A stretch of 64,000 nucleotides of DNA from Bacteroidota bacterium (GTDB taxonomy: Bacteria; Bacteroidota; Bacteroidia; Chitinophagales; Saprospiraceae), in contig JAIUPL010000002.1 in NCBI GenBank assembly GCA_020160935.1, positions 248,001 to 312,000 of the forward strand, read 5' to 3'. Below, in pieces: positions 16,623-21,900 of the stretch. A model generated the notes under the pieces. The model was given only the letters and a program-made list of their open reading frames with translations, was not told the DNA's origin and did not search any database. The translations under genes were made by a program, and so were the position numbers. How positions within the stretch are numbered: the stretch's first letter is position 1; every line of letters starts with the position of its first letter.

Positions 16623-17273
16623 TCATCCATAAAATTTATCCATGTCCCAATTTTCAGCATTGTCGATGATGTATTGGGAAATACGGTCAAAGGAGGGTTC
16701 GTCGCGAATGATATGGTCATGAAACCGAGGTTGCCAGGCAAAGTCGAACCCCAGGCGGTGTGCATGTTTGGTTACGGCAGATTTGTATCCGCCTATGATG
16801 GACGAGATGGAATTTTTACCCTGGTTTTGAAAACGTTGTTGTCCGAGGGTTTTTGGTGGGGTGGTGGGTAGAGACAAGGCACGCCTTGTCTCCACGTTTG
16901 GTTCGTTTGGTAGAGACAAGGCGTGCCTTGTCTCTACATTCGATACGTTCGGTGCGTTCGGCGGAGACAAGGCATGCCTTGTCTCTACGTTTTCCACGCC
17001 CGTCAATATCAAAATCCCGTGCATATGATTTGGCATCACCACAAATTCACCCAATTCAATATGTTGTGCATGGTTTTTTATTTCATACCAAAATACATCT
17101 GCCAGCACGCCCAGCGGCGACAACACCATTCTTTTATTTACAACCTCCCCAAAATAATGAAGGCGATGGTGGGTGCAAATGGTGATAAAATAGGCAGCAG
17201 CCCAGCGATAATCCCAGTGTTGGTGGCGTGCTGACGGAATGCGGTATTTGTTTTTGTATTTTCCGTGGTCCAT
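16623..17273 (-). CDS. REP-associated tyrosine transposase (RAYT, Y1/HUH family) with internal REP insertions
   Basis: A 216-residue HUH single-strand nuclease of the COG1943/IS200-like group. Visible: RWAAAYFITICTHHRLHYFG (23-42), HUH motif PNHMHG with H83 and H85, GGYKSAVTK (161-169), WQPRFHDHIIRDE (180-192) and ISQYIIDNAENW, where Y201 is the likely catalytic tyrosine. RAYTs cleave and rejoin REP palindromes. Residues 93-138 are an insertion made of three VETRHALS/VETRRALS units encoded by REP palindromes lying in frame inside the gene; the catalytic motifs and reading frame are intact. More REP copies lie just upstream at 17354-17534. Whether it is active is unknown. Downstream 16481-16622 holds nothing I recognise. 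Confidence 0.9.
   Translation of the reverse strand: MDHGKYKNKYRIPSARHQHWDYRWAAAYFITICTHHRLHYFGEVVNKRMVLSPLGVLADVFWYEIKNHAQHIELGEFVVMPNHMHGILILTGVENVETRHALSPPNAPNVSNVETRHALSLPNEPNVETRRALSLPTTPPKTLGQQRFQNQGKNSISSIIGGYKSAVTKHAHRLGFDFAWQPRFHDHIIRDEPSFDRISQYIIDNAENWDMDKFYG
16868..16988. repeat. Three REP palindromes inside the RAYT coding sequence
   Basis: Three 28-nt imperfect palindromes with half-site GTAGAGACAAGGC and its complement lie at 16868-16895, 16910-16937 and 16961-16988. Between them are short related spacers (CGTTTGGTTCGTTTG, ATTCGATACGTTCGGTGCG). All three are read in the same frame by the minus-strand RAYT gene as VETRHALS-type octapeptides at residues about 96-105, 113-122 and 127-136. 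Confidence 0.95.
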
Positions 17274-17353
17274 CCTTGTATTAAAAACAAAGCGTGAAAA
17301 TGAAGCGTGCGATTAACGCCACCAAAATAATACATTCATCTAAAACGTGCAAC

Positions 17354-17534
17354 GTAGAGACAAGGCACGCCTTGTCTGCCCGCACGCAGAGACAAGGCAT
17401 GCCTTGTCTCTACCCACCCACCCACAAAAAAAGGCAGCCATTGCTGGCTGCCTCCCACTCCGGATTAAATAAACCCTTGAATTGTTTTATATGACAATCA
17501 ACCACGATAGAGACAAGGCATGCCTTGTCTCTAC
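17354..17534. repeat. Three further REP palindromes upstream of the RAYT gene
   Basis: The same 28-nt palindrome occurs at about 17354-17381 (right half degenerate), 17386-17413 and 17507-17534. The first two are head to tail; the third abuts the outer-membrane factor gene, whose TAG stop (17534-17536) overlaps its last base. A short hairpin GGCAGCCA/TGGCTGCC near 17431-17452 lies between them. There is no gene in 17274-17533. Confidence 0.92.
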
Positions 17535-18970
17535 TACCGCCATCCGCCGCCCAATTCCCGATATACCTGCACCACAGAGGTCATCATATCGCGTTTGGTT
17601 TCCATCAATTCCAGTTTGGCTTCCAGCACGTCGCGTTGCGTCATCAGTACCTCGAAATAGTCGACGCGGGCGGATTTGAACAGGTCGTTGGAAGCGCTGA
17701 TCGCCCGATTGAGCGCATCTACCTGTTGCGATTTCAGCGCGTAGTTTTTTTCCAGGTTGCTGATATTCGACAGTTGGGTCGACACACCGAGATAAGCATT
17801 CAGGATAGAGCGCTCGTAGTTGTAAATGGCCTGCAATTGCCGGTTGTTGGCGCTGTAAAACTCCGCTTTAATCGCGTTGCGGTTGATGATGGGCCCTGCC
17901 AGGTCGCCAGCCATGGTAAACAGCAGCGATTCGGGGAATTTGACCAGATACGAAGGTTTGAACGCCTGCAAACCCAGCGCCGCCGAAATTTCGAGCGAGG
18001 GATAAAACTCGGCCCGCGCCACCTGAATGTCGATATTCGAGGCGGCCAGTTCCAGTTCGGCCTGGCGGATGTCGGGTCGGTTGGCCAGCAGGCTCGACGG
18101 AATACCCGTGTGCACTTCGGCAGGTACAAGGCTCAGAAAATCGCCTTGCGTGCGCTTGATTTCCTGAGGATAGCGGCCCAGCAGGAAGTTGATGCGGTTT
18201 TCGGTTTCCTTGATTTTCTGCAGTATTTCAAACTCCATGCTTTGCGATGCCAGCACTTCTGCCTGAAATTTCTGTACGCCGAGTTCGGTGGTTTGGGCGG
18301 CCTCTTTCTGGATTTTTACAATCTCCAGTGCATTTTTCTGGAGATCGATATTCTGGCGGACGATCTGAAGTTGGCCGTCCAGCGCCAGCAATTCGTAGTA
18401 GGAATTGGCAATTTCCGCGATCAGGTTGGTCACCACGAAATTTTTGCCTTCTACACTTGCCAGATAGCGCGTGACGGCGGCTTTCTTGGCGTTGCGCAGT
18501 TTTTTCCAGATGTCTACTTCCCAGTTGGCGTAGGCCACCGGCGCGTAATCGAGCAGCACTTCAGGCACTTCTTTGCCCGGCGTTATTTCCGTAGAGGCAT
18601 CGCCTGCGCCCTGGCTGGTGTAGCGCCCTACTTTTTCGAGGCCAATGCCGCCCCCGGCACGCACAGAAGGCAGGATGGCGCCTTTGCGCATCATCACTTC
18701 ATTGCGGGAGATTTCAATTTCCTGCAAAGTGATGTTCAATTCCTGGTTGTTGCGCAGGGCGACGTCGATCAGTTCGAGCAGGTTCGGATCTTTGAAAAAC
18801 GACTTCCACGATATTTGGGCGATGTTGCTCGTATCTGTGGTTGCATTCCCGAAGGTGTCCGGCACTGTCGTGTTGACGCTTTTGGTAGCAATGGTCGGCA
18901 CCTTGCAGGACGCCATTGCCAGACCCAGCCCTAGTGGCAGGAGCAAATGATATATTTTAAAATTCAACAT
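17534..18970 (-). CDS. RND efflux outer-membrane factor (NodT/OprM-type lipoprotein)
   Basis: A 478-residue outer-membrane factor from ATG 18970. The signal ends in a lipobox (LAMASC), so it is lipid-anchored as in OprM/NodT proteins. Two outer-membrane efflux repeats are visible: LLELIDVALRNNQELNI with ASTEITPGKEVPEVLLDYAP, and SLLANRPDIRQAELELAASN with a long coiled coil; the NRPDIRQAE motif is diagnostic. It forms the outer-membrane duct of the tripartite pump with the two preceding genes, and overlaps the pump gene by 14 bp. Its stop codon overlaps a REP palindrome edge. Confidence 0.93.
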   Translation of the reverse strand: MLNFKIYHLLLPLGLGLAMASCKVPTIATKSVNTTVPDTFGNATTDTSNIAQISWKSFFKDPNLLELIDVALRNNQELNITLQEIEISRNEVMMRKGAILPSVRAGGGIGLEKVGRYTSQGAGDASTEITPGKEVPEVLLDYAPVAYANWEVDIWKKLRNAKKAAVTRYLASVEGKNFVVTNLIAEIANSYYELLALDGQLQIVRQNIDLQKNALEIVKIQKEAAQTTELGVQKFQAEVLASQSMEFEILQKIKETENRINFLLGRYPQEIKRTQGDFLSLVPAEVHTGIPSSLLANRPDIRQAELELAASNIDIQVARAEFYPSLEISAALGLQAFKPSYLVKFPESLLFTMAGDLAGPIINRNAIKAEFYSANNRQLQAIYNYERSILNAYLGVSTQLSNISNLEKNYALKSQQVDALNRAISASNDLFKSARVDYFEVLMTQRDVLEAKLELMETKRDMMTSVVQVYRELGGGWR

Positions 18971-21900
18971 GGTGATCAATTTCTTCTGTTAACGGATTTT
19001 CTTCTTCGTCTTCCACAAAATGAACCTTTTCAGACCGGCGACCGATCAGGTAGTACAGCCCTGGTATCATTAGCACGCCTATGATCGTACCGATGAGCAT
19101 ACCGCCGGCGGAAGCGGAACCAATGGTGCGGTTGCCAATAGCGCCCGGGCCAGTGGCGAACACCAATGGAATCAGACCAGCGATAAATGCGAACGAAGTC
19201 ATCAGAATTGGGCGGAAACGCGCTACTGAGCCCTCTACGGCAGCGGTAAAAACCGAATCGCCCGAGCGGTGTCGCTGCACGGCAAATTCCACGATCAGTA
19301 CGGCATTTTTACCCAACAAACCGATCAGCATGACGATGGCCACCTGTGCGTAAATGTTGTTTTCCAGACCGGCAATTTTCAGCAGCAGGAAAGCACCGAA
19401 AATACCCGTCACCAGAGAGAGGATGACTACAAACGGCAGGATAAAACTTTCATATTGCGCCGACAGGATCAGGTAGACGAACCCGAGACAAATCAGGAAG
19501 ATGTACAGGGCTTCGTTGCCGCGCCCCACCTCATCCTTGGAAATACCCGCCCAGTCGATGCCAAAACCCCGCGGCAGGGTTTTATCGGCCACATCCATAA
19601 TGGCAGCAATGGCCTCGCCGCTGCTGTAACCCGGTGCAGCCTGGCCGCTGATCTCGGATGCATTGTACAGGTTGTGGCGTGTGATTTCCGACAGGCCGTA
19701 CACTTTTTCCATTTTCATAAATGCGGAAAACGGCACCATTTCCTCGCGGTCGTTCTTCACGTACAGTTTCAGGATGTCTTCCGGCAAGGCGCGGTATTCG
19801 GGCGATGCCTGCACAATGACTTTGTACTGACGACCAAATTTGATGAAACTGATTTCATAGTTACTACCCAGCAAGGTGGAAAGCGTATTGGTGGCATTTT
19901 CGATGCTCACGCCTTTCTGCTGTGCAATGTCGTTGTCGATGCGCAGCATGTACTGTGGGAAACTGGCACTGTAAAACGAGAACACCGACGACAGTTCCGG
20001 GCGCTGGTTGAGGGCATTTACAAACTCGTTGTTCACCGTTTCCATTTTTTTGTAGTCGCCCGAACCTGCTTTATCGAGCAGACGTAATTCAAAACCGCCC
20101 GCCGCGCCATAGCCGGGCACCGCCGGAGGCTGGAAAAACTCGATGGTAGCGCCTGTAATGTCTTTGGAGCGCTCTTCAATTTCCTCGATCACCTCGCGGG
20201 CCGAATGCTTGCGCTCTTCCCAACTTTTCAGGTTGATGAGGCAGGTGCCCGAGTTGGCGCCTGTGCCTTCCGTCAGGATTTCGTAGCCAGCAAGGCAGGA
20301 AACGGATTGTACGTCTTCTATTTCCTCCGCAATTTTTTGCAGACGCTCGGCTACTTCGTTGGTACGTTCGAGGCTGGAGCCTGGCGGCGTTTGAATAACG
20401 GCATAAAACATACCCTGATCCTCATTTGGGATAAAACCCGTGGGCAAGGTGTTGTTGAAATACCAGGTACCAGCAAAAAACGCCAGCAACACACCCAGGG
20501 TGACCACACGCCGGTTGACGATCAGTTTCAGGATGTTCCGATACCCACCTGACAAGCTGTTAAACCAGTTGTTGAAGCCATCCAGAATCCGGTTTAGCAC
20601 CGTTTTCTTTCTGGGCTGGCCATGCGTGTTTTTCAACATCATGGCACAAAGAGCCGGCGTCAGCGTCAGGGCGATCAAACCCGAAAGAACGATGGAGGTG
20701 GCCATCGTGATGGAAAACTGGCGGTAGAAAATACCTACCGGCCCCGACATGAAGGCCACCGGAATAAACACCGCCGCCATCACCAGCGTAATGGCAATAA
20801 TCGCCCCACTGATTTCGTGCATGGCCTCTTCGGTAGCCTGTACAGGCCCCAGGTGCTTGGTTTCCATCTTGGCGTGCACGGCTTCCACCACCACAATGGC
20901 GTTGTCGACCACAATACCGATAGCCAGTACGAGGGCAAACAGCGTAATCAGGTTGAGCGTGATTCCGAAATACGACATGAACATGAAGGTACCAATGAGC
21001 GATACCGGCACTGCAATCGTCGGAATCAGCGTGGAACGCCAGTCGCCCAGAAACAGAAACACCACCAGTCCCACCAGCAAGAACGCCTCTACCAGGGTGT
21101 GCAGCACTTTTTCGATGGAGGCATCGAGGAAGGTGGATACGTCGTAACTGATCTCGTAGTCCATGCCTTTTGGGAATGAATTGGCCTTGATTTCCTTCAG
21201 TTTGGCCTTTACATCCTTGATAACCTGGCTGGCATTACTCCCGTACGACTGTTTGAGTACGATGGCCGCAGATGGCTTGCCGTTCAGGTTGGAATAGATG
21301 TCGTACATGGAACTGCCAAATTCCACTTTTGCAACGTCTTTCAAGCGCAGCATTTCGCCATTTGGGCTGGCGCGCAGCACGACATTTCCGTACTCCTCTT
21401 CGGTGGTAAAACGGCCCGGGTATTTCAGTACGTACTCGAATGCCTGTGAACGTTTGCCCGAACTTTCGCCGGTTTTACCGGGCGAGGCTTCGAGGCTTTG
21501 TGCACTGAGGGCTTCCATCACTTCATCGGCCGAAATTTTATAGGCCAGCAGGCGGTCGGGCTTCAGCCAGATACGCATGGCGTACTCGCGGTTGCCGAGG
21601 ATGTCGGCAAAACCCACACCGTCGACGCGGCGCAGTTCGGACAAGAGGTTGATGTCGGCGAAGTTGAACAGAAATTTCTGGTCGGCCAGCGAGTCGGTGC
21701 TGTACAAGTTGATGTACATCAACATGTTGGATTCTTCGCGGGAAATTTTCACCCCTTCGCGCACTACCAGCGGCGGCAGTTTGTTCACTACTGATGCCAC
21801 GCGGTTTTGCACATTCAGCGATGCCTGGTTGGGGTCGGTACCGAGGTTGAAAATGATTTGCACGGTACCTTCGCCGTCGTTGCCAGCATCGGAAGTAATG

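Follow-up and report, generated by a model that had tools for sequence, protein, structure and literature searches.

In-frame REP palindromes in a clade of RAYT genes: a candidate cis-acting recognition site of the encoded transposase

Introduction

Why would the gene of a REP-associated transposase carry, in frame within its own coding sequence, copies of what is presumably the enzyme's substrate? The question is raised by a 64,000-nucleotide stretch of a Saprospiraceae (Bacteroidota) genome (hereafter the window; contig JAIUPL010000002.1, positions 248,001 to 312,000), in which a RAYT (TnpAREP) gene contains three REP palindromes. A preliminary description treated this as an exceptional gene, invaded by its own REP, and as a placement of the substrate that had not been reported. 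The latter point must be withdrawn. In the part of Quentin et al. (2018; PMC6006769) accessible to us, in-frame REP insertions between HuH and Y are described as a trait that is both unique to subclass 2.4 and predominant in it, with the suggestion that they affect the protein little. A literature search, with subscription papers outside its reach, brought up no further report of REPs inside RAYT genes. Thus, in-gene REPs in RAYTs are already known, and it is a regular, enzyme-specific and enzyme-matched site that we did not find described in the accessible portions of these sources.

Related observations come from papers that were likewise available in part. RAYT genes are said always to be flanked by two inverted REPs (PMC2817692), and TnpAREP groups have co-evolved with their cognate REPs (PMC8266576). 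Rickettsia RPEs and intragenic GTAG/CGTC REPs are also in-frame palindromic repeats inside genes, but their hosts are genes of many kinds (PMC3733652), whereas here the host encodes the presumed enzyme of the repeat. On the comparisons reported below, we consider it probable that the in-gene palindrome is a cis-acting recognition site of the encoded enzyme, kept at the DNA level.

Results

The RAYT gene of the window

The features of the gene are as follows (window coordinates).

16623..17273, minus strand: RAYT / TnpAREP gene, HUH Y1 transposase, 216 aa, intact ORF
17019..17027, minus strand: HUH motif H83-M84-H85, codons read; H83 and H85 are invariant columns
16671..16673, minus strand: putative catalytic tyrosine Y201, invariant column
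16824..17003, minus strand: variable linker, about residues 91-150, holding the palindromes; low pLDDT, variable insert
17238..17240, minus strand: codon for Ile at residue 12, the residue that varies with the first base after GTAG (here A)
16722..16730, minus strand: codons of residues 182-184 (PRF), after W180-Q181; tentative tracking of the third base after GTAG (A here), weak and clade-bound

The protein has the HUH motif, downstream tyrosine and Y1 fold of a TnpAREP; from what is known of this family we take Y201 to be the catalytic tyrosine. Residues H83, H85, K164, W180, Y201 and N205 are invariant in a 50-sequence alignment, and the window motifs NHMH, WQ and YIIDNA stand beside a consensus of NHMH, WQ and YIxNNP in the 50 relatives. 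Both profile scores lie below the curated cut-offs: 49.9 bits (E 3e-13) against 80 for NF047646 REP_Tyr_transpos, and a weak 13.8 bits (E 0.064) against 23 for Pfam Y1_Tnp. NF047646 aligns to the protein in two stretches. We take the low scores as an effect of the insert splitting the domain, and do not treat a score above the curated cut-off as a defining feature of TnpAREP membership.

In the structure model, mean pLDDT is 92-98 for residues 21-90 and 161-216 and 47-61 for residues 91-150. This linker, bordered by strand 83-90 and helix 156-173, is predicted to be disordered, in agreement with the earlier proposal that the REP copies lie in a tolerant loop. The best structural match is E. 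coli TnpAREP with its REP hairpin (PDB 4er8), which has the fold and motifs in common with the window protein; a comparable linker appears to be absent from the 4er8 chain, as inferred from its length of 165 residues. An antisense ORF (window 16853-17185, plus strand) encodes the same octapeptides, as expected of palindromes, and was not taken as a gene.

Palindromes in and beside the gene

The palindrome type in the window RAYT is GTAGAGACAAGGC(A/G)TGCCTTGTCTCTAC, with three in-frame copies 3' of the HUH motif. The copies at the locus are listed without strand.

16868..16895: in-gene REP palindrome, peptide VETRRALS; both feet, foot GTGG on the gene strand
16910..16937: in-gene copy read as VETRHALS; both feet GTAG
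16961..16988: in-gene copy, likewise read as VETRHALS, with a change in one foot
17354..17381: REP copy upstream of the start, with a change in one foot
17386..17413: REP copy upstream of the start; pattern match and hairpin fold
17507..17534: REP palindrome upstream, adjoining the 3' end of the minus-strand ORF 17534-18979; pattern match and hairpin fold

The preliminary description was right about the RAYT gene, its in-frame copies at 16868, 16910 and 16961 and the retention of the catalytic motifs, which fall in invariant columns. Its count of three holds for the gene itself but missed the three upstream copies (17354, 17386 and 17507). Spaced by 42 and 51 nt, the in-gene palindromes all fold as single-stranded DNA hairpins (z -4.8 to -6.7), and those at 16868 and 16910 are double-foot REPs, GT[AG]G ... 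C[TC]AC, a trait of subclass 2.4. When up to 2 mismatches are allowed, the 5.8 Mb genome holds 38 copies of the palindrome and 0 of the reversed control pattern, so the palindrome is not a product of chance. Six of the 38 are at the window RAYT, within 16868-17534; REPs near the gene and dispersed across the genome are a further TnpAREP trait seen here.

These features resemble those given for subclass 2.4 in the accessible part of PMC6006769: an in-frame REP between HuH and Y, a variable domain between beta3 and alphaC, double-foot REPs (GT[AG]G...C[TC]AC) and a distribution over Cyanobacteria, Bacteroidetes and scattered phyla. The motifs given for the subclass are NH[IFV]H, WQ and YIxNNP; WQ and a YIxNNP type recur in the consensus of the relatives, whose first motif is NHMH, and the window protein has NHMH, WQ and YIIDNA. 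The REPs of E. coli, by contrast, are imperfect palindromes with a bulge (PMC8266576, as far as accessible). To that part of PMC6006769 the present analysis adds control counts, persistence as a single copy, distinct palindromes in paralogs and a residue-base coupling.

The palindrome occupies the same linker in most relatives

Two sets of relatives were compared. The first comprised 80 loci from named records (75 parsed). Most belong to Bacteroidota, and some carry the labels of Cyanobacteriota, Calditrichota and further phyla. Metagenome bins account for several of them, and some of the taxon labels of such loci may be wrong. Because the query for this set itself contained the palindrome, a profile-based phylum sample was added. 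At E 1e-30, 130 of 395 phylum genomes had a match, and 110 loci (30+80), nearly the best-scoring among the matches listed, were taken (102 parsed), so that distant clade members lie outside this set. It includes the window gene (L133), and one of its loci, L136, duplicates L012. Thirteen of the 190 loci were unparsed, many being truncated or split.

Palindromes were searched between the HUH motif and the conserved W and scored as paired bases minus 3 per mismatch. At a score of at least 8, 155 of the 177 parsed genes have a palindrome in the same linker. At a score of at least 9 it is found in 142 of 177 genes and in 35 of 1062 equal-length control windows (first set, 56/75 genes and 19/450 flank windows; phylum set, 86/102 and 16/612). 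Within the same 177 genes, the N part reaches a score of 9 in 10 and the C part in one, and the matched stretches of the seven other NF047646 hits in the window's own genome, two of them partial, score 4-7. With a palindrome in most parsed relatives, the window gene is not exceptional in having one, although three or more in-gene copies, as it has, are rare (6 of 155). A synonymous-shuffle null, in which 41 of 78 genes beat all 60 shuffles, is weak because rare codons hardly move; flank windows and a feet-anchored pair count are better controls. In most of the 80 first-set relatives the peptide at this place is the translation of a palindrome, for example VETRHALSL, VETGHALSL, VGTTHALSL, VETLHATSL and VETRFIAS, or RDAINRVST and RDKACLVS in another frame. 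The preliminary description had envisaged an insert absent from all relatives; the opposite was found. A one-off invasion of the window gene is accordingly rejected, as the relatives carry a palindrome too.

The remaining 22 genes have no palindrome or a weak one (score <8). They are scattered: a quick tree of poor resolution gives 21 changes, no departure from shuffled labels, and this looks like repeated loss. L036 beside the carrier L025, and L035 beside the carriers L024 and L063, have the look of natural empty sites. GTAG-footed hairpins within 500 bp outside the gene, counted under rules that differ from those of the in-gene test, occur in 61 of 177 loci, against 155 of 177 for the in-gene palindrome, which therefore looks like the steadier partner. 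Flanking hairpins showed no compensation in genes lacking the palindrome (7 of 22, against 54 of 155 carriers).

In the Algoriphagus RAYT L030, nt 294-394 of the ORF hold two palindromes, one with the stem AGGGC and one with AACGC. The two stems are characteristic of separate sets of relatives, and the gene is a possible intermediate in switching.

Palindromes tend to follow the enzyme lineage, and some persist as single copies

Pairs of genes more than 97% identical or with fewer than 80 shared columns were dropped from pairwise comparison. Palindromes are shared by 1% of pairs at 40-45% core identity, a proportion that grows to 36% at 60-65% and to 5 of 6 pairs at 80-85%. Pairs sharing a palindrome (at most 2 mismatches) at 60-65% core identity have a four-fold identity of 0.30, which suggests that silent sites are saturated at distances over which the palindrome persists. 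An identical 28-mer is common to 13 loci (two of which, L012 and L136, are one gene), with a median core identity of 62% and four-fold sites 34% identical.

Separate genes of one genome were compared in 21 pairs (19 genomes, 39 genes), each of separately fetched loci, not tandem neighbours. Palindromes differ in all 21 (4 to 14 differences over about 20 bases, at a core identity of 36-66%), and no cross hits of the paralog palindromes were found in the genes or flanks of these pairs. Among tandem RAYT stretches, two neighbours at L205 share a palindrome and a nearby third differs, and at L059 two share one. In 55 of 155 loci the locus's own palindrome has a copy in its own flanks; in comparisons with the flanks of other loci, a copy was found in 104 of 3837.

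Double-foot REPs were found in 98 of 130 genomes with a clade RAYT and in 67 of 265 without one, that is, with none at E 1e-30 (odds ratio 9, p 1.5e-21, kinship ignored). Four of the genomes without one at that threshold (G146, G415, G330 and G064) hold 24-44 double-foot REPs, which may be served by another enzyme. In 36 genomes whose fetched loci include a full in-gene double-foot copy, the in-gene copies make up 44 of 218, and in 5 they are the sole ones.

Single copies were followed further, with "only copy" defined as the only match to that stem pattern at no more than 1 mismatch, a definition that misses more-mismatched copies. Of 27 genomes with an in-gene palindrome of the T1-T3 type (G001-G028 minus G014), 12 had one match, and 11 of these matches were located. 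The 13 genomes re-searched were chosen mainly for low counts: 11 one-match genomes, that of L012 (two matches) and that of L029 (uncounted before). In 12 of the 13 there is one match, whose coordinates, checked by hand, fall inside the RAYT gene. By record titles, eight of these 12 cases are isolates (five Pedobacter, Belliella, Algoriphagus and Runella), and other REP types can coexist with the single copy, for example eight in G013. In these 12 genomes, to judge from matches within 1 mismatch, the site cannot be maintained by new insertions from a pool of REPs of that type. Replenishment from a common genomic pool is considered unlikely, as separate paralogs also differ. Nor is an invasion of this one gene by a genomic REP supported, given the palindromes in 155 of 177 parsed genes, the 21 differing pairs and the 12 single-copy genomes.

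The main rival to a recognition site is a tolerated selfish insertion, the view taken in Quentin et al. (2018; PMC6006769), again in the accessible part: REPs mobilised by the enzyme would insert into its gene, and would survive only where they fall in frame in a peripheral flexible loop. The predicted disorder of the linker suits this view, as do the 22 genes without a clear palindrome and the reading frames of the full-foot in-gene copies (67 in the GTA frame, 12 in the next and 0 in the frame giving a TAG stop). So do three other genes of the window's own genome (a propeller protein, hsdS and hsdM) in which the same REP lies in frame:

L113:3281-4699 and L113:4696-6561 (G000:C14), minus strand: type I restriction genes (Methylase_S and N6_Mtase families), in-frame palindromes
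L118:3777-6146 (G000:C26), plus strand: two-component regulator propeller protein, HALSLEQT / HPLSLEQT repeat run

In both restriction genes the palindrome differs from that of the RAYT by at most 2 mismatches and follows the Pfam domains, encoding VETWHAMS and VETGHALS; three in-frame places of the propeller gene match at the same threshold. The preliminary description had considered that such repeats might be frequent in unrelated genes by chance of composition, and this is borne out in part, for a few genes of the genome. Tolerated insertion thus does occur. As an account of the RAYT palindromes it is nevertheless unlikely: it fits poorly with a palindrome at one position in 155 of 177 genes, with the differences in every same-genome pair compared, with a sole copy of its type persisting in 12 located cases, and with conservation beyond saturated four-fold sites.

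A residue of the enzyme tracks a base of the palindrome

Mutual information between core columns and palindrome bases was computed for 133 of the 155 genes, and the top columns were chosen post hoc from 924 column-by-base tests. The top pair is residue 12 with the first base after GTAG (REP base 5). Among 124 genes, 38 combine R, N or S with G and 84 combine another residue with A, a rule that holds in 122; it is broken by L017, where I stands with G, and by one case of S with A. When nearest pairs differing at this base were compared (18 without overlap, mean identity 0.62, among them L031/L016, L143/L135 and L026/L025), residue 12 was again the top column. It changed in 13 of 14 scorable pairs with different bases, against 12 of 53 with the same base (p 2e-6). 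Residue 12 has middling model confidence (pLDDT 67), and sequence alignment with 4er8 gave no match reaching as far as the N-terminus. In E. coli TnpAREP, contacts to the GTAG motif involve beta1, the surroundings of beta4 and the C-terminus (PMC8266576, in its accessible part).

For the third base, Arg stands at 182 in 24 of 28 genes with G and in 1 of 105 with A, an association that is largely that of one clade. L009, L147 and L168 (AGGC-type) have G at this base without the expected residues. The nearest-pair test placed residue 164 first, not 182-184, in distant pairs (mean identity 0.50), and is confounded for this base. Residues 182-184 come right after the WQ that aligns with the WQ of 4er8.

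On the tree, 2 supported independent pairs bear on the first base and 3 on the third, numbers too small to reach significance, and in crossed controls for the residue code the same trend turns up about once; part of the coupling may reflect phylogeny. The residue-12 match also appears in single-copy cases (L040, R with G; L031, S with G; L025, I with A), which are most simply read as showing a constraint that works through the in-gene copy itself. The coupling lends support to the candidate reading, raised in the preliminary description, that the enzyme may act on its own gene.

Pairing and reading frame point to constraint on the DNA

Copies picked by their feet alone (79) have 44 distinct inner sequences, yet complementarity is kept in 243 of 264 inner pairs, and every one of the first five inner positions shows three or four kinds of Watson-Crick pair. 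A stem that varies but stays paired, and full-foot in-gene copies read in two frames (67 and 12), both indicate that conservation is at the DNA level. In 17 of the 79 the arms extend perfectly for at least 3 bp past the foot into the flanks, where about 1.6 would be expected; in L045, L015, L011, L151, L171 and others the arms run past the REP foot to 21-26 paired bases. These extended arms suggest strand switching at the hairpins, as template switching would produce, and raise the alternative that quasi-palindrome correction keeps the arms identical in a neutral way, without selection. Such self-maintenance accounts for pairing but not for sequence identity across distant enzymes, and leaves the coupling with residue 12 unexplained; the 28-mer shared at a median core identity of 62% also points against neutral descent. 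We find this alternative improbable.

More improbable still is an mRNA hairpin that would act on translation or on RNA stability with no reading by the enzyme. It would fit the presence of a hairpin at about the same point of the coding sequence in most relatives, with folding computed as DNA, but the sequence of the palindrome tracks the enzyme and not stability alone. A conserved functional octapeptide, brought to mind by the recurrence of VETRHALSL in many relatives, is hardly tenable and was rejected, as the palindrome is read in two frames yielding unrelated peptides (VETRHALS and RDAINRVS) and lies in a linker predicted to be disordered.

Discussion

As far as sequence comparison reaches, we have documented a palindrome that is widespread and fixed in position, covariation in its stem, independence of reading frame, distinct palindromes in separate paralogs, persistence as a single copy and one residue-base coupling. 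With these in hand we return to the recognition-site reading. The gene would encode a TnpAREP-type HUH transposase that works on single-stranded DNA, with the palindromes as copies of its recognition hairpin. The in-gene palindrome would then be a regular cis element, inherited and diversified together with the enzyme, which the protein itself may only tolerate, as a disordered linker. We infer binding, and perhaps nicking, by the enzyme at the hairpin within its own gene at times when replication or transcription leaves this DNA single-stranded. Several observations speak against this reading. To judge from the 22 of 177 genes that lack a clear palindrome, the palindrome is dispensable, and flanking hairpins do not compensate for it there; tandem copies can share a palindrome; the REP also lies in frame in other genes of the window's own genome; and the coupling may in part be phylogenetic.

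Two uses can be proposed for such a site. If it is used, the chances seem evenly balanced that it serves as a built-in seed REP, whereby enzyme and substrate would be transferred together horizontally and found a REP population. The window genome does hold such a population, its 38 copies including the six at the RAYT gene. Negative autoregulation, again provided that the site is used, is conceivable though somewhat doubtful.

More broadly, the sequence evidence makes it quite possible, and we propose it tentatively, that a large, multi-phylum RAYT clade carries its cognate palindrome as an enzyme-specific in-gene cis element, one that can persist as a single copy, evolves by a readable code (residue 12 with REP base 5 and, more tentatively, residues ~182-184 with base 7) and controls or re-seeds its enzyme.

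These observations bear on how REPs are founded, recognised and kept beside transposases that are mostly single-copy. If the substrate is built into the gene, each such gene supplies both the enzyme and its recognition site. If the proposal is true, autoregulation or seeding would be directly testable, and RAYT specificity would be readable from sequence, with a first residue-base pair proposed here.
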